Below, piece by piece: positions 12,540 to 33,214 of a stretch of 33,214 nucleotides of DNA (within the stretch, counting starts at the first letter, position 1; each line of letters starts with the position of its first letter). The translations under genes were made by a program, and so were the position numbers. The DNA lies in the NCBI GenBank assembly GCA_029977825.1, contig JAPOKD010000006.1, positions 1 to 33,214 on the forward strand, written 5' to 3'. The DNA comes from Planctomycetota bacterium (GTDB lineage: Bacteria; Planctomycetota; Planctomycetia; Pirellulales; Pirellulaceae). Below the pieces are notes generated by a model. That model ran no database searches. It saw only the letters and a list, made by a program, of their open reading frames with translations, and was not told where the DNA came from.

Positions 12540-15500
12540 TTAACTCCAGACTTGATCGACATCATCGGCCAAGAGATCGAGTAATGCGTTTTCTTCCTCT
12601 TCGTCACGCATATCAGAAGCGATAGCGGCTTCGGTTGGGTCCAGAACTTCCGGTGCCTTGGGACAGTCAGTGATAGCAATTTTCTCCACGGAGCTGATCT
12701 GGCCATTTCCTAAGCCAGCGAAGACGTCGTCCGCTGAAATCACAGTCGCGGAGTCGCTACTGACCTGACCGACAACCTGCTCACCCTCGCCTTCGTTGGA
12801 GCCTTGCAGGAGTTCAAGCAGCACCAGATTAGCGTCCATGGCAGTGACACGGCCATCACCGTTTACATCCGGATAGATCTTCGATGCAGAGTCACTACGA
12901 CTGCTCTCGCCCTCACCCACGAGTGACAACTGGTTGATGACTAAAAGAGCGTCGATCGGACTTACGAATGAATCGCCGTTAACATCCGCGTTGTTGCTTT
13001 GATTCTGCTGCCCAGAACCTGCAGAGCTGATGGTGATTGACAACACGTCGTGACGAATCTCGTCGACAGCAATAGGATCATTGTCCCCGAAAAGAAGCGT
13101 GTCGTGTTGGGGTGACAGATCAGCCGGCGAACCCTTGAACTGGACTGTTCCAGGCGCGGTGGCCTCAAAATAGATCGTAACTAGTTCAGCTGGATTATCG
13201 TCCGTGTAAGGTAAATTGAAGTCCGTCCCAGTCCGAAAACTTCCGACCTCGTCGATGACGCCCGGTGTTGCTGCGGTACCAGAGCCAGCAGCCGCGTTGA
13301 ATAAATCGCCGAAATCGTGATCGAAGTCGAACGCCCCGCTGGTCGGCTGAACAGGTGTAAGATGATCAGCTGAGTAGAGAACATCCAAGAAACCGGCATA
13401 CACAAGGGTATGCGCCAAAACTGGTCTCAGATCATCAACTATGACTTGAAGACCAATCTCATCATTTACGGTAACCTGAGACGGATCCAATGCATCGCCG
13501 GCCCGATTAACCAGTGCGAAGTCATACGCAACACGTGCAGTTCCTTCCGGTGCTGCAAGTTGCTGATTGCCCAGGGCGATCGTGACGTTCGCCGATGTGA
13601 ACACACCGTCAGTCGTGACGACGAAGTAGCTGAACTGCTCCAAGCCATTGGCGTTGTTGTTGGGCTGATAGCTGAGGTAGTCATCACTAAGATCGTTTGG
13701 TGTGCCATTGTCTTCAACCAGGACAACACCCAAGGAAGAATTATCAAGCAGACCGAACTCAGTAATGGTACCGTTTTCGCCGAGATTATCATTCTCCAGA
13801 ACATTCAATACGCTACGTGGTGATGACAGGCTACCGTTGTTCACAATCACATTTCCGTTGGAGTCGAGCCCATCGGGAAATGAATCATCAACCGCCGCAG
13901 TCGGAAACTCCGAATCCGGCAGAATCGTCAACTGGGTCGAATTGAAACGCAACTGCTGAATGGTTAAAGCGTCATTTTCACCAAAGAGAACGCATTCAGA
14001 TTGCAGTGTGTTTGCAGGATCACCGGAGAATTCGGCAATGCCTGATGCGTTTGCACGCATGGTCGCTTCAAAGAGAACCACCGCACCTGCGTGTTGCTGC
14101 TGGTCATCGACACTGAATGGCTGAGTGCTTCCAACCTCATTCAACACACCTGGTACCGCAGCATCACCCGAGCTGAATGTTCCAGGTTTACTGAAGAGTG
14201 GGCCAAACGTAACATCGAAATCAAGACCATCATTCGGCGTGCTATCGACTGTTGAAACCAAAGCCGACGTGTAAAGCAAATCCATGAATGCCGAAATGAC
14301 ACCGTTTGGTATGCCCGGTCTCAGATCATCAACCGTCACACGGACGGTGAACTCATCGCCAACAGAAACATTCTGGATTGGGTTTCCGTTAGTGCCATCA
14401 AGGATCTCGACATCAAATTCCATCAGGTCATCGTCTTGAGCACCGGGCAACATGTTGACCGTGACGGTTGCCTGATCAACCAGTCCAGCCCCATCCTGAA
14501 TGGTGTACAGAAACTGCTCAGTTCCGGAAAATCCGTCTTGAGGGGTATATCGGATGGATTGCCCACCGGCAACAACCGAGATGATACCGCCATTTGTACC
14601 GGCACTGACGCTCGTAATCGCCGACCCTCCATTGATACTCGCGATATCGTTATCCAAGACTGCCAGCGGCCAATTCACAGAATTCGTGGGGATGTTGTAG
14701 ATATCATCTACGGCGAGCGGCACATTTGACTGGAACTTAACGTCTACAAAAACAGATGCCGTGGCAACATTGCCAAACGGATCGCGCACAGTGTAACTGA
14801 ACGAATCCAGTCCGATGAAACCGCTTGGCGGGGTATAAAAGATCTGATTATTGGTCGGCGGTGGCACGATACCGCGTGTGCCAGTGGTATTCAGGCTATC
14901 GATGATTAACTGGCTACCAGCCAACTGGAAGTCGTTTGCGAGGACATCCAAAGGCACGCTGATGGAATTTCGTGCGACGTCAAAGTAGTCATCGTTTGCG
15001 ATGTCGGAACCCGTGAGAATAGTCACTTTATGGTCCTGCACCTCACCCGTTCCGGCGAATCCACCAGCTCCAAGATTCCCGGTTTTACTGAGCCGTAGAC
15101 GCAAGTAGGTCTCACCGGTCAGAGCACTGGAAGGCACGGCCACTGGGACTGAATAGACGACGTTCGTCACGCCTGTGTTGATTGCACGATTACTCAGAAA
15201 CTGCTCACCGGCGTCTTCAAAGTCACCATCCTGATTGAAGTCGAGAAAGGCCTGAAGATAGGCAGTCGATCCCGTGTTGTTGGTAATCGTCACATCGAAA
15301 TTCGACGTGCCACCTGGAGACAATGGAGCTGTCTGCAGGACACCATCTTCATCATTGACCGACTGGTTCAGATCATCACCATCTGCGTTGATCGATGGAA
15401 AGCCGTCGACATCACGGTCAGGTGCTGTACCAATCGAAAGCCCATCAACAATCCCATGTCGAGCACCATCAGGAAGTGAAGTGCCATAGGAATTTGGAGC

Positions 15501-17594
15501 ATCCCCGAAATCCAGGGTCGAGCGGAACCCAAAATTGTACTCGTTTGAGGCTGCAACCCCATTGTAAAAAATGTTGTGCTCACCGCTTGCAGGACTCGAA
15601 ACCTGATATCCAATCGGTGCAACAGCCCGTATGGTGTAATTTCCTGCCGTGCCGAAGTTGAAGTAGTAGCTGCCATCCTCATCAGAGCGAACGTTTGTCT
15701 CACCCACGTCCGGACGATCGTCGTTATCGGTATCGAGGAAGATATAAACTCCTTCGAGTGGTGCTTCGTTGGCATCCATAATGCCATCTCCGTCAGCATC
15801 ATCGAATGCGACGCCCGTTTTCACACCACTGACAATACCAAAACCAAACTCGACTCCGCTGACTGTCCCTGAATTCGGAACGTTGACAGTTACGACAGAC
15901 GGAGTTGTCGCGAGGTAGGTTGCTGGTGCAGCAGCGTACAACTGAACAACGCCTGCACTGACACTCAGCGAGAACGTTCCATCAACACCGGTCGTGGTAG
16001 TCGGTTCACCGGTGCTGTACACGCCGTCCCCATTCGTATCGGCAAAGACAGTCGCGCCGATGAGACCACCATCGCCGGAACTGTTGCCATTCAGATTCTC
16101 ATCAAAGAAGACCCTGCCGCTGACCGAGCCACCACCTTGGGTACCGGATGAAAGCAAGTGAGCCAACGTGTTGGTAATTTCACTCTTACCAATGAAGCCC
16201 TCTGCAGCGCTGTAAAAATCATCCGCAAAGACTGGTGCTACGTCATCTGACGTACCGTAAATACCATCAGGTCCTATGGATTGGAAATATGGGATGGAGT
16301 TGGCAGAACCTTCGTCAGAAAGCGTACCGGTGAAGTTGTTCCCATCTGTGTGAGCCATCCCCAAGACATGGCCAGCTTCATGTGCGACTACCGCTGCCAG
16401 GAAGTCACCGATGAAGTCAACTTGACTGTTGTTGGGGCTAATCCCACCATCGACAGCATCCTGAGCATCCTGACCAAAAGCATCAAGCGCGAAGAAGCCG
16501 TACTCTGATAGATCAAAGTTGCCCAAGTCCACGCTCTGAGCATATCCGTAAACACCGTCATTATTGATATCAAGTCCGCTACCACCAATCATCAGACGCG
16601 TAAGACGCGGATCATTCATTGAAATCTGACCACCATGGTCGCGGCTATTCAGGATACGTACCGCGTACTCACCAGGGACTGACGACTCAGCGTAGTCGCC
16701 GTTCTCCCCAGTATCGGTCAAGTCCTCAAAGATCCGGACCGTTCCATCAATTACCCGATCGATGATGTTGTTTGCTGCATTCAAATCGCCGGCCTCAATG
16801 CCCAGCAGAGGCAGAGACTCAACCAGACTTGGGATCCTCACGAACCCAGTCAAACCAACCAGATTCCCGTCGAGCACGTCGCCGTCAAAGTCCAGATAAA
16901 TAATCTGTGTATCACCAACTGCCAGCTCTTCGGTGACCGGCCGGTAAGCTCGCAAACCAACTTGATAGGTATTAACGACGCTGAGCACATCGGGCGCTAC
17001 CGTGAGATGATAAGTACCATCCCGAGGAATGACTGTCGTCCCAGTAGCATTTCCCAAGGTCTGTCGGGGCGCGTGGTCTCCGAAGGGCGGGTCGCTGAAT
17101 GTTGTTGCCGAACTTCCGAAGATCGCTTGCCCGCTGGAATCACGGATGATGAACTGGTTGGCAGCCCCCAAAACAGCAACATCAAGGATGTCACCGCCGC
17201 GGAGTGTCATCGCGAACGTATCCAAGTCAGCCGCAAAGCCAGATTGAGTCTGCTCTGTACGAACCGGTAATGTGCCAAAGACGTCGACAGTGTCCTGTTG
17301 TCCGAAACCGGTACCAATCGGAACCGCGTCAGCGTTGGCGATTGAATCGTTGAGCCCCATGTCAAGGAAGCTCTCCGACTCTGTGAATGTGTATGACTGA
17401 ACCGAGCCCACGTTCCGATTGAACGTGTATTCCGTCAAGTCCGGGGCAGGAGCAGTGGGCAAATCCGTCAGGACCGCAAGCAATCTTCGCTCCTCCAATC
17501 CTTCCATGTTCAGACGCCGCCTCTTGGAGAGGGCCTTCGCACGCTTGGTATTCTTGTCGGATCGTAGTTTTTTAGGTTGATTTCGTTTGATCAT
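12540..17594 (-). CDS. Giant exported surface protein: planctomycete LEGLEERRLLA-type N-terminus, PPC-like region, metzincin-type zinc motif, SdrD-B-like, GEVED-like, Ig/cadherin-like, two cohesin-like segments and a C-terminal dockerin
   Basis: RRRLNMEGLEERRLLAV; HEAGHVLGMAH; VSGRVFFDENLNGNSSGDGGLIGATVFADTNGDGVY; LDFGDAPNSYGTSLPDGARH...DEDGV; NDDYFDVARNSISVPLDVLAND; ADVNGDSFVSPIDALLVINQL and DVNGDGRVTAMDANLVLLELL dockerin repeats. Confidence 0.93.
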   Translation of the reverse strand: MIKRNQPKKLRSDKNTKRAKALSKRRRLNMEGLEERRLLAVLTDLPTAPAPDLTEYTFNRNVGSVQSYTFTESESFLDMGLNDSIANADAVPIGTGFGQQDTVDVFGTLPVRTEQTQSGFAADLDTFAMTLRGGDILDVAVLGAANQFIIRDSSGQAIFGSSATTFSDPPFGDHAPRQTLGNATGTTVIPRDGTYHLTVAPDVLSVVNTYQVGLRAYRPVTEELAVGDTQIIYLDFDGDVLDGNLVGLTGFVRIPSLVESLPLLGIEAGDLNAANNIIDRVIDGTVRIFEDLTDTGENGDYAESSVPGEYAVRILNSRDHGGQISMNDPRLTRLMIGGSGLDINNDGVYGYAQSVDLGNFDLSEYGFFALDAFGQDAQDAVDGGISPNNSQVDFIGDFLAAVVAHEAGHVLGMAHTDGNNFTGTLSDEGSANSIPYFQSIGPDGIYGTSDDVAPVFADDFYSAAEGFIGKSEITNTLAHLLSSGTQGGGSVSGRVFFDENLNGNSSGDGGLIGATVFADTNGDGVYSTGEPTTTTGVDGTFSLSVSAGVVQLYAAAPATYLATTPSVVTVNVPNSGTVSGVEFGFGIVSGVKTGVAFDDADGDGIMDANEAPLEGVYIFLDTDNDDRPDVGETNVRSDEDGSYYFNFGTAGNYTIRAVAPIGYQVSSPASGEHNIFYNGVAASNEYNFGFRSTLDFGDAPNSYGTSLPDGARHGIVDGLSIGTAPDRDVDGFPSINADGDDLNQSVNDEDGVLQTAPLSPGGTSNFDVTITNNTGSTAYLQAFLDFNQDGDFEDAGEQFLSNRAINTGVTNVVYSVPVAVPSSALTGETYLRLRLSKTGNLGAGGFAGTGEVQDHKVTILTGSDIANDDYFDVARNSISVPLDVLANDFQLAGSQLIIDSLNTTGTRGIVPPPTNNQIFYTPPSGFIGLDSFSYTVRDPFGNVATASVFVDVKFQSNVPLAVDDIYNIPTNSVNWPLAVLDNDIASINGGSAITSVSAGTNGGIISVVAGGQSIRYTPQDGFSGTEQFLYTIQDGAGLVDQATVTVNMLPGAQDDDLMEFDVEILDGTNGNPIQNVSVGDEFTVRVTVDDLRPGIPNGVISAFMDLLYTSALVSTVDSTPNDGLDFDVTFGPLFSKPGTFSSGDAAVPGVLNEVGSTQPFSVDDQQQHAGAVVLFEATMRANASGIAEFSGDPANTLQSECVLFGENDALTIQQLRFNSTQLTILPDSEFPTAAVDDSFPDGLDSNGNVIVNNGSLSSPRSVLNVLENDNLGENGTITEFGLLDNSSLGVVLVEDNGTPNDLSDDYLSYQPNNNANGLEQFSYFVVTTDGVFTSANVTIALGNQQLAAPEGTARVAYDFALVNRAGDALDPSQVTVNDEIGLQVIVDDLRPVLAHTLVYAGFLDVLYSADHLTPVQPTSGAFDFDHDFGDLFNAAAGSGTAATPGVIDEVGSFRTGTDFNLPYTDDNPAELVTIYFEATAPGTVQFKGSPADLSPQHDTLLFGDNDPIAVDEIRHDVLSITISSAGSGQQNQSNNADVNGDSFVSPIDALLVINQLSLVGEGESSRSDSASKIYPDVNGDGRVTAMDANLVLLELLQGSNEGEGEQVVGQVSSDSATVISADDVFAGLGNGQISSVEKIAITDCPKAPEVLDPTEAAIASDMRDEEEENALLDLLADDVDQVWS

Positions 17595-18148: not shown

Positions 18149-19612
18149 TTACCAGTTGTATTCGGTACCGAACGAGAAACCTTGCACAACCAAGTCATCG
18201 AGCACATACGCAGGATTAATGACGGTTCCGCCAGCTTCAAGGCTCAAGACCGTGTCTTGGTCGATTGAACCGAATCCAATGTCCTCGGCAGCAATCACAT
18301 AATAGGCGGATCGGAACTTCCAGGAATGATTGAATTGCCAAATGAATTTGAGTTCAAACTCGCCCAGAAGATCGCCCCCGCGTCGCGTGTCGGTAATGAC
18401 GGTGTCTGGGACCGAGTTTGCATCCACAGCAAAAGAGCGTTTGATCTCGTTTTGGACCCAAGCTGCTTTCAACCCCATGCCCAGCCTGACCCCGGAGTGG
18501 ATGTTCCACCAGACGTCGCCCCCCGCCTGAGCTCCGAACATGTGATTTCGTACTCGGTCCGACGAGTTGAAGAAGCGAGTGGGTTCCCCGAAGGTTGAGT
18601 ACTTCATCTCGTTCTTGAACTGAAGATAACGAAGACCAAACAACCATGAGCCTTGGAAGCGGCAGTAAGGTCCCATCGTCCGCCGTCGATAATTCAATTC
18701 GATGCTGTGCAACTGACTTTCAATGCCAATGCTTTGTGAGATCGAGCGGTCGACATCGTCCAGCTCGGCAGGATCGCCAAAGTCACTGATAAAGGAGAAC
18801 AGGTCAGGTGCGTCAGAAGTCACTCCGGCAGTGGCGTTCCACTTGTTTCCACCCATGTAAGTTGCTTCGACGTTACCACCGACGCCACAGATCAACGCCC
18901 CCGAAAGTCGGATACCCGCAGCCAGCTCGTCGCCACCGTCAGCATCACCTGATGTTAAAACGACGTTCGGAGGAGGATTACCAGAACCCCGACTCGTAAC
19001 AGGAAAATTAGAACCTCCCTGCGTGTGCCCAAGAAACACAGCCTCAGCTGAAAGATCGTACCAACGTAATCCACAAATCTCACCGTAAGGGCGGCACTTG
19101 TGCAGGTTGCTACCGAGGTAGCGAAGATCAATCGATTTGCATGCCAAGCAACCGCTGCCGCGACAGAAGAAGCAATATTTGCTAAGTGAATCCAGACAGC
19201 TGCCACCACCACACAAACCACAGCCGCACAGCCCGTTGCCATTCATGCAGGAGCCAATCACGCCTCCGCGAGAGTTGCCACCGCAGGCACCTGAACCAGT
19301 GTCGCAAGTACCGCAATTTCCGTCACACTGACCGCCGGACATGAAGCCGACTGGCATGACGCCGCCCGGGAACGCAGCAGGGCCGTAGCCTTGCATTCCA
19401 GGCGAGAAAGCCATTCCTGCGGGAACAACACCACCCTGGTACATGGATGGGTGGGCCATCCCAGCTGGGGTGACATACCCGCTAGCGTCGTAATCCGCGT
19501 CTGCCATCGGCATCTGAGCGGCGGCCGGTAAAGCGAACAGTGCTGCACATACAGCAATCGCTCTGAGGCTCGATGAGCGTGTGAAAAGTCGTGATTGAGT
19601 CATTCGGTGCAT
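18149..19612 (-). CDS. BBP7-family (DUF1551-like) outer-membrane beta-barrel protein with Cys/Gly-rich N-terminal region
   Basis: Signal peptide SLRAIAVCAALFALPAAAQ; Cys/Gly-rich segment; GLRWYDLSAEAVFLGH; SIELNYRRRT...GSWLFGLRYLQFKNEM; aromatic C-terminus GFSFGTEYNW. Confidence 0.82.
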   Translation of the reverse strand: MHRMTQSRLFTRSSSLRAIAVCAALFALPAAAQMPMADADYDASGYVTPAGMAHPSMYQGGVVPAGMAFSPGMQGYGPAAFPGGVMPVGFMSGGQCDGNCGTCDTGSGACGGNSRGGVIGSCMNGNGLCGCGLCGGGSCLDSLSKYCFFCRGSGCLACKSIDLRYLGSNLHKCRPYGEICGLRWYDLSAEAVFLGHTQGGSNFPVTSRGSGNPPPNVVLTSGDADGGDELAAGIRLSGALICGVGGNVEATYMGGNKWNATAGVTSDAPDLFSFISDFGDPAELDDVDRSISQSIGIESQLHSIELNYRRRTMGPYCRFQGSWLFGLRYLQFKNEMKYSTFGEPTRFFNSSDRVRNHMFGAQAGGDVWWNIHSGVRLGMGLKAAWVQNEIKRSFAVDANSVPDTVITDTRRGGDLLGEFELKFIWQFNHSWKFRSAYYVIAAEDIGFGSIDQDTVLSLEAGGTVINPAYVLDDLVVQGFSFGTEYNW

Positions 19613-28716: not shown

Positions 28717-29427
28717 CTACTGAATGCCAAGCAATTCCACTTCGAATACGAGCACTTCATTTGGCCCGATTGCTGGCTGGCTGCCACGCTCACCATAGGC
28801 GAGTTCTGACGGAATGTAGAGCATCCACTTGTCGCCAACCTTCATCTTCTGCAAAGCCATTTGCCAACCTTTAATGACCTGGTTTGCCTGAAAGCTCGCT
28901 GGTTGTCCTCGTTGAACCGAACTATCGAAGACACTTCCATCGATCAATTTTCCGGTGTAGTGCACTTTGACTGTATCATCAGGCTTTGGAGAAGGACCAC
29001 TTCCGGCTTTCAATACTTTGTACTGAACGCCACCGTCCAGAGTTTTTACTCCTTCTTGTTTGGCATTATCAGCAAGGAACTTGACACCCTTCGCCTTCTG
29101 GGCAGCTGACATCTCGGCTTGCCGCTTGGTAAGCAATGCCTGAATTTTTCCTTGAGTGGCCTGTAGCTGCTCAGATGTCAAAGTGGGCTCTTTCAGTGCA
29201 ACACCTTCCTGAAAACCCTTCAAAAAGGCCTCCAGCTTCATGTCCTCTGCCTTGAAGCCGCTTTGCCCCATGTTCTGACCAACAGAGAAGCCAAGGAAGT
29301 AACCTATCAGCTCGTTGTCGGACATACCGGGATTGGCGGCGGGCGGGGGTTCTTGTGCCATAACAGACTGGACAATTGCAACTTGGCAAATTGTCATTGC
29401 TCCTGCGATCAGGAATGATTTGAACAT
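28717..29427 (-). CDS. Exported FKBP-type peptidyl-prolyl cis-trans isomerase (Mip/FkpA-like)
   Basis: Signal peptide; N-terminal dimerisation-like helical region; VKVHYTGKLIDGSVFDSSVQRGQPASFQANQVIKGWQMALQKMKVGDKWMLYIPSELAYGERG. Confidence 0.95.
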   Translation of the reverse strand: MFKSFLIAGAMTICQVAIVQSVMAQEPPPAANPGMSDNELIGYFLGFSVGQNMGQSGFKAEDMKLEAFLKGFQEGVALKEPTLTSEQLQATQGKIQALLTKRQAEMSAAQKAKGVKFLADNAKQEGVKTLDGGVQYKVLKAGSGPSPKPDDTVKVHYTGKLIDGSVFDSSVQRGQPASFQANQVIKGWQMALQKMKVGDKWMLYIPSELAYGERGSQPAIGPNEVLVFEVELLGIQ

Positions 29428-32392: not shown

Positions 32393-33214
32393 TTACTTGC
32401 AGCAACCGCAGGAGACTTCGGTGGTCACAGGCTTGCACACGCGAACCTGTACTTCTTTCATCGTGGTGACAGGAACACACACGGTGTATTCCTCTGGCAC
32501 CTCTTCGGAAACGGTATCGTAAACAGTCACGTTGCAGGTACGAGTCCGTTCCTCAGGAACGCACACGGTATACTTGACCTCGCGAGTCTTTTCCTGAGTT
32601 TCCATGCGAGTCCGGTTCACGGTGCGAGTCCGCTCCTCAGTCTTGCATGTGGTCTGTGAGACCATGCGAGTACGATCTTCCATGCGTGTCTTGGTAACAG
32701 GAACTTTTCGAGTCCGTGTTTCCTTGACCATCTTCGTCACGGGAACCGTACGCGTATTCTCTTCAGCACGGCACTTCGTCACGTCCCGAGTCCGCTCTTC
32801 TTCTCGCATCTTGCACACGTCAACCATGCGCTTTCGCTCTTCAACCACCATCTCACAGTAAGCGACTTGGCGAGTGCGAGTCTCCATTCGTGTTTTACAA
32901 ACAGGAACGGTCCTGGTTCGTGTTTCACGACGATAGGTTGTAACGGGCACTTCACAGGTCCGCTCTTCAAGACGAGTTTTGCAAACCGGAACTTCACGCG
33001 TTCGTTGTTCAGTCTGGTATTTGGTAACCACGCAATCGCGAGTGCGTTCCTCCGCACGACACTTCTGGACTTGAACCATCCGTGTTCGCTGCTCAGGACG
33101 GCACTTGGTGACGCTGACTTTGCGAGTACGCGTCTCGGTCTTGCAACGCGTCACTGGCACCTTCCGGGTGCGAGTTTCCGTATTGCAACGTGTCACTGTG
33201 TAGGTGTACGGCAC
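32393..33214 (-). CDS. Repetitive Thr/Arg/Val/Cys-rich planctomycete protein (degenerate 14-aa repeats, YTV-like), probably truncated at the window edge
   Basis: Consensus about VTKC+xExRTR+VP repeated more than 15 times, ending VSCGCCK; the ORF runs to the last base of the window. Confidence 0.82.
   Translation of the reverse strand: MPYTYTVTRCNTETRTRKVPVTRCKTETRTRKVSVTKCRPEQRTRMVQVQKCRAEERTRDCVVTKYQTEQRTREVPVCKTRLEERTCEVPVTTYRRETRTRTVPVCKTRMETRTRQVAYCEMVVEERKRMVDVCKMREEERTRDVTKCRAEENTRTVPVTKMVKETRTRKVPVTKTRMEDRTRMVSQTTCKTEERTRTVNRTRMETQEKTREVKYTVCVPEERTRTCNVTVYDTVSEEVPEEYTVCVPVTTMKEVQVRVCKPVTTEVSCGCCK

Follow-up and report, generated by a model that had tools for sequence, protein, structure and literature searches.

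The window analysed here, a stretch of 33,214 nucleotides of planctomycete DNA, closes with a reading frame on the minus strand that appears to consist almost entirely of degenerate 14-aa repeats of a TRTR type. Which protein do these repeats belong to, and how would they fold?

A YTV-family gene at the contig end

The translation of 32393-33214 (minus strand) is free of stop codons and ends in SCGCCK followed by the stop. The contig terminates at position 33214 and thereby truncates the gene; as judged from orthologs, about 395 N-terminal codons are missing, and the GTG at the edge of the reading frame plays no role as a start codon. The following features were located:

32393-33214, minus strand: 3' part of a YTV-family gene, encoding the C-terminal 273 aa plus stop; orthologs comprise 661-866 aa from stop to stop
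32414-33214, minus strand: C-arm (TRTR arm), fragment residues 1-267, in a continuous 14-aa register with one 12-aa unit; corresponds to residues 395-661 of the reference ortholog L072, within the strand 378-662 predicted by AF2
32459-32560, minus strand: match to Pfam YTV (PF07639), where TRTR units pass into YTVCVP units; 28.1 bits, cut-off 21
32783-32818, minus strand: lone 12-aa unit VCKMREEERTRD; relatives that differ by 2 aa here show a 2-aa difference in the N-arm's mirror unit as well
32396-32413, minus strand: C-terminal Cys cluster SCGCCK, read from the translation; most homologs have Cys-ended C termini

The fragment is made up of 18 units of 14 aa and a single one of 12 aa (VCKMREEERTRD), all 19 being in register, where the first-pass annotation had claimed at least 15. 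The degenerate 14-aa repeat that it described was confirmed by identity at lag 14, which amounted to 116 matches; 31 were expected, and the highest value among 2000 shuffles was 50. Strong signals were also obtained at lags 28, 42, and 56. Conservation of this periodicity had been named there as a test, and it is kept in all aligned homologs. A search for DNA-level tandem repeats in the repeat region detected zero arrays; hence, the 14-aa repeat is apparently old and has been preserved at the protein level. The YTVCVP units and the terminal CGCCK were likewise recovered. A protein built almost wholly from TRTR repeats, as first proposed, describes the visible fragment correctly, but this fragment is the C-terminal arm only, cut by the contig end. 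Cys makes up 19 of its 273 residues. Downstream of the YTV gene lies an enoyl-CoA hydratase gene, an adjacency conserved in relatives L071-L080.

The match to PF07639 in the window scored 28.1 bits in one search and 24 bits in another, both above the cut-off of 21, and a full-length ortholog reached 66.7 bits over nine stretches, so that the early impression of a YTV-type protein proved right. The length of this model corresponds to some three 14-aa units on a single strand, and most of the TRTR arm escapes detection by it. Units of hybrid type, e.g. YTVCVPEERTRTCN, combine TRTR and YTV features and thereby show that TRTR and YTV units are variants of one 14-aa unit. YTV proteins were found in 190 of 199 Planctomycetia genomes and in none of the 14 control genomes to which the search outside the class extended, and restriction to Planctomycetia has been reported (PMC8567305, PMC10632474). 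The family is thus near-universal in the class. Within the genus, 20 of 22 genomes carry YTV homologs, which are much longer than the present fragment. The fragment is the C-terminal part of a presumably secreted YTV-family protein of about 670-860 aa. It shares with known Planctomycetia YTV proteins the family match, a signal-peptide-like N terminus (judged by eye in orthologs, the fragment itself being devoid of an N terminus), Cys richness, and the class-wide distribution; family membership itself is ordinary. On contigs titled Candidatus Kuenenia stuttgartiensis (L118, L119, L124, L139, and L141), YTV proteins similar to those found in Planctomycetaceae MAGs are encoded; these contigs are probably mislabelled MAGs rather than cases of YTV in anammox bacteria.

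Full-length relatives begin with a signal-peptide-like segment; the YTV arm comes next and is separated by a Cys/Gly loop from the TRTR arm, after which the chain closes with terminal Cys. The reference ortholog L072 (667 aa, about 90% identical to the fragment, from a MAG labelled Rhodopirellula sp.) starts with the signal-peptide-like MRSRLKHFMLGILAAFLCSLGAEAA and a Cys cluster. These are followed by an N-arm of about 20 YTV-type units (YTVxVPYTEQVEQT), a loop (RDxGxYxC...CGGCTRGCRNGCNDGCGG...VPNLVTEEV), and a C-arm of about 20 TRTR-type units ending in SCGCCK, the fragment corresponding to its last 273 aa. Each arm measures about 285 residues. Loop length varies freely among relatives, from 31 to 147 aa, and in many members the loop is rich in Cys. 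The net charge of the L072 arms is +30 (C-arm) and -3 (N-arm); in other members it ranges from +19 to +37 and from +2 to -25, respectively. These opposite leanings fit charge pairing between the arms.

Length, indels and covariation of the two arms

Arms were delimited in 67 proteins by composition only, free of any alignment. The lengths of N-arm and C-arm, ranging from 161 to 394 aa, were correlated with r=0.987 and a slope of 0.999. Size changes were further counted as residues between conserved anchors in 54 proteins; in 48 of these, both arms had changed by exactly the same number of residues, these changes taking 15 distinct values between -56 and +108 aa; random matching would yield about 14% equal changes. 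Across 27 aligned full-length homologs, each N-arm indel was accompanied by a C-arm counterpart of equal net change (+2/+2, -2/-2, -14/-14, -16/-16, -28/-28, +28/+28, and -42/-42). All matched indels were of even size (2, 14, 16, 28 and so on), so that the faces described below would be preserved. Matched indels were located at mirror, i.e. antiparallel, positions (13 events, r=-0.93), the standard deviation being 21 for the position sum versus 113 for the position difference; the remaining scatter is to be expected because whole-unit indels can slide in a repeat alignment.

Six of the 54 proteins deviated from an exact match. The arm changes of L125, L129, and L136 differ by a constant 12, and L145 and L151 belong to other subfamilies, for which the anchors may not apply. 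L109, from an uncultured Pirellulaceae MAG, is the sole close family member with differing changes (+56 versus +28) and looks like either a true exception or a repeat collapsed in the assembly. In the distant YTV protein L190 (G214:C22:18000-22500), N-arm units run 16,16,16,16,14,16,14... and C-arm units follow in exact mirror order (16/16); pairing the arms in parallel with a shift of three units gives a fit as well (14/14), so that mirror order is not decisive in this protein.

Covariation was analyzed as APC-corrected mutual information (MI), averaged over inter-arm antidiagonals S=i+j in L072 numbering (48 sequences, Neff 31). The inter-arm peak was found at S=713 (z 5.6), followed by 711 and 715; parallel inter-arm diagonals of the same 48 sequences gave just a broad, weak hump. 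Among the top 20 inter-arm pairs, 55% fell within |S-713|<=2 as compared to 1.8% expected by area. The same-phase alternatives S=699 and S=727 were absent among the leading values; hence, the signal at 713 reflects more than the 14-aa phase. Charge compensation peaked at S=715, 713, and 711 (z 7.0, 6.1, and 4.3), and static counts of opposite-charge pairs were weaker than covariation. Antiparallel peaks were also obtained for a loop-less YTV subfamily (26 proteins; S=471 for a length of 474, z 5.0) and a shorter-armed one (21 proteins; S=517-519 for a length of 516, z 4.5). The group of paralogs with 16-aa units yielded no clear peak with its 14 sequences. This group includes L070 (G000:C269:11500-17500), the second YTV-family gene of the same genome, which encodes 529 aa; its two arms are close to equal in length (162 and 174 aa), and it has a long tail devoid of repeats.

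Residue alternation was unbroken over both arms. In the N-arm, V and Y occupy even positions and T, P, C, and M odd ones; in the C-arm, V, R, and K are found at odd and T, P, C, and M at even positions. Val was counted 2494 times at even and 60 times at odd positions of the N-arm, and 92 and 1845 times in the C-arm; Pro was counted 0 and 914 times, and 676 and 0 times, respectively. With S being odd, pairing would result in two consistent ribbon faces, V/Y/R/K/E and T/P/C/M. Disulfides within the hairpin were considered and rejected: 0 facing C-C pairs were observed versus 14 expected (p=0.007), and the Cys residues of the C-arm are most often placed opposite Pro. The periodic Cys highlighted in the first-pass annotation are thus relevant, but they are left unpaired across the arms. 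Being confined to one face and never facing each other, they would form disulfides that join neighbouring ribbons.

Hairpin model and alternative readings

These sequence patterns suggest, with a probability of roughly 0.78, that in the complete protein the YTV arm and the TRTR arm are the two strands of one giant antiparallel beta-hairpin. The fragment would then be the C-terminal arm of a secreted YTV cell-envelope protein of a Rhodopirellula/Rubripirellula-like planctomycete; the hairpin is drawn from relatives, the N-arm of this genome's own protein lying beyond the contig end. N-terminal YTV arm and C-terminal TRTR arm would pair residue by residue according to i + j = 713 (L072) and be joined by the Cys/Gly loop at the tip. 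An extended strand rises by 0.33 nm per residue; at full extension, arms of about 285 residues would therefore form a ribbon about 94 nm long. Side chains of V/Y and R/K/E would lie on one of its faces and those of T/P/C/M on the opposite one, and the N- and C-terminal Cys clusters would lie together at the ribbon base.

For full-length L072, AF2 predicted a beta-ladder of strands 51-335/378-662 and 338-347/366-375, with all pair ends summing up to 713. Confidence was low (pLDDT 56, pTM 0.19) and AF2 draws on an overlapping alignment; hence, the prediction is taken as agreement with the covariation and not as independent proof. AF2 applied to the fragment alone (pLDDT 40) placed long strands in the first 49 and last 47 residues, which was treated as an artefact of the missing partner.

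An obvious alternative is the beta-solenoid or self-contained beta-fibre of the first-pass annotation, each 14-aa unit forming a coil or hairpin of an independent stack. Strong 14-aa periodicity, beta-branched residues, and periodic Cys would all fit, but distant arms covary at residue level on one antidiagonal, indels are mirror-matched between them, the even/odd alternation leaves no turn position, the AF2 strands are uninterrupted by coils, and a search by sequence found no relative in the PDB. We consider this reading quite improbable: the TRTR array would be one arm, its YTV partner being N-terminal and outside the window. Stacked short coils with contacts between neighbouring units were rejected likewise, the contacts being antiparallel between arms as far as covariation indicates and the AF2 strands continuous. 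Of the proposed long beta-structure with charge zippers, beta-structure and charge pairing are retained, but charges would pair between the arms and not along a solenoid. Highly improbable, in our judgement, is a low-complexity and largely disordered cross-linker whose periodicity is a by-product of repeat expansion. Low pLDDT in both AF2 models agrees with it; conserved faces, compensated indels, covarying charges, and the absence of a DNA-level tandem repeat argue against it, and expansion alone gives no mirrored equal indels in two arms of different composition.

It is harder to separate the hairpin from an antiparallel pairing between molecules, in which the N-arm of one would pair with the C-arm of another and polymerise into open-ended beta-ribbons. 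Covariation alone fits an intramolecular hairpin and such a swapped pairing equally, as does the indel evidence; the free loop length (31-147 aa) makes a swap sterically possible, and open-ended ribbons would suit an insoluble network. Nevertheless, the AF2 ladder continues into the loop base (338-347/366-375), and exact equality of the arms within one gene is explained most simply by a hairpin, which renders intermolecular pairing unlikely.

A search of the PDB by sequence revealed no relative even at E<=10, and no solved structure found there by sequence or by fold resembles the giant two-arm hairpin. Foldseek ranked the lysenin pore and the phi29 tail complex first with TM-scores of about 0.05-0.09, probably because they contain long two-stranded beta-ribbons; the search by fold thus yielded nothing beyond generic long hairpins of pore-forming and phage tail proteins. 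Earlier contact-based modelling of the same family has produced a trRosetta model for the YTV repeat (PF07639, D5SU36; quality 0.59, template none), which, in the accessible part of that article, is a table entry with the fold undescribed in the text (PMC8078820). Modelling of repeat units in this way would miss the pairing of two distant arms. In the YTV literature covered, the main YTV paper (Mahajan 2020) excepted, a two-arm or hairpin architecture is absent; the giant-hairpin architecture appears to be new to this literature.

Putative role in the cell wall

Planctomycetes were long thought to be protein-walled, and YTV proteins are the best known wall constituents. The envelope link suggested in the first-pass annotation agrees with the literature on relatives: among the major components of the SDS-boiled Gemmata obscuriglobus wall are YTV proteins (PMC5287468), and the same holds for wall preparations of Tuwongella immobilis and Rhodopirellula baltica (PMC8567305, citing Hieu 2008, Mahajan 2020). 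Furthermore, the essential gene set of Planctopirus limnophila includes a YTV gene (PMC10632474), and PMC2754498 refers to a disulfide-bonded protein sacculus. The YTV protein most likely acts as a ribbon-shaped structural element in a protein layer held together by disulfides. The Cys face, the Cys cluster of the joined termini, and the Cys-rich tip would be positioned to link neighbouring molecules, and disulfides from one face and both ends would cross-link ribbons into an SDS-insoluble protein wall. With its net positive charge, the C-arm may in addition bind anionic polymers of the envelope.

Three other genes of the window, all on the minus strand, encode exported-looking or surface proteins. 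The product of 18149-19612 is a secreted-looking protein of 487 aa with a Cys/Gly-rich N-terminal half (CDGNCGTCDTGSGACGG...) and no Pfam or NCBIfam match; its C-terminal half may be an outer-membrane beta-barrel, and it could be a putative wall-linked partner. An exported-looking FKBP-type peptidyl-prolyl isomerase (28717-29427) is encoded about 3 kb from the YTV gene and is syntenic in close relatives. It is possibly a folding helper for the Pro-rich repeats or a chance neighbour, the latter because the two genes are separated by those for ribosomal protein L21 and a kinase. A surface protein of 1684 aa with cadherin-like, Ig-like, GEVED, SdrD_B, and dockerin domains is encoded at 12540-17594.

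With some reserve, we lean towards extending the model to YTV proteins as a class, which would be giant two-stranded antiparallel hairpins of about 50-130 nm. Their two arms would differ chemically, Cys would be placed at both ends and along a single face, and disulfides would link the hairpins into a protein 'sacculus'. If true, such ribbons would to our knowledge be far longer than any known beta-hairpin, and the 'sacculus' would work like glycan strands and cross-links. An uninterrupted beta-hairpin with arms of 285 residues would exceed what is otherwise seen among protein folds and might serve as a template for materials. The pairing rule, namely constant i + j, equal arms, even indels, two faces, and Cys never facing Cys, provides a concrete atomic hypothesis; it predicts the ribbon length of each protein from its sequence and would make the architecture of the wall testable.
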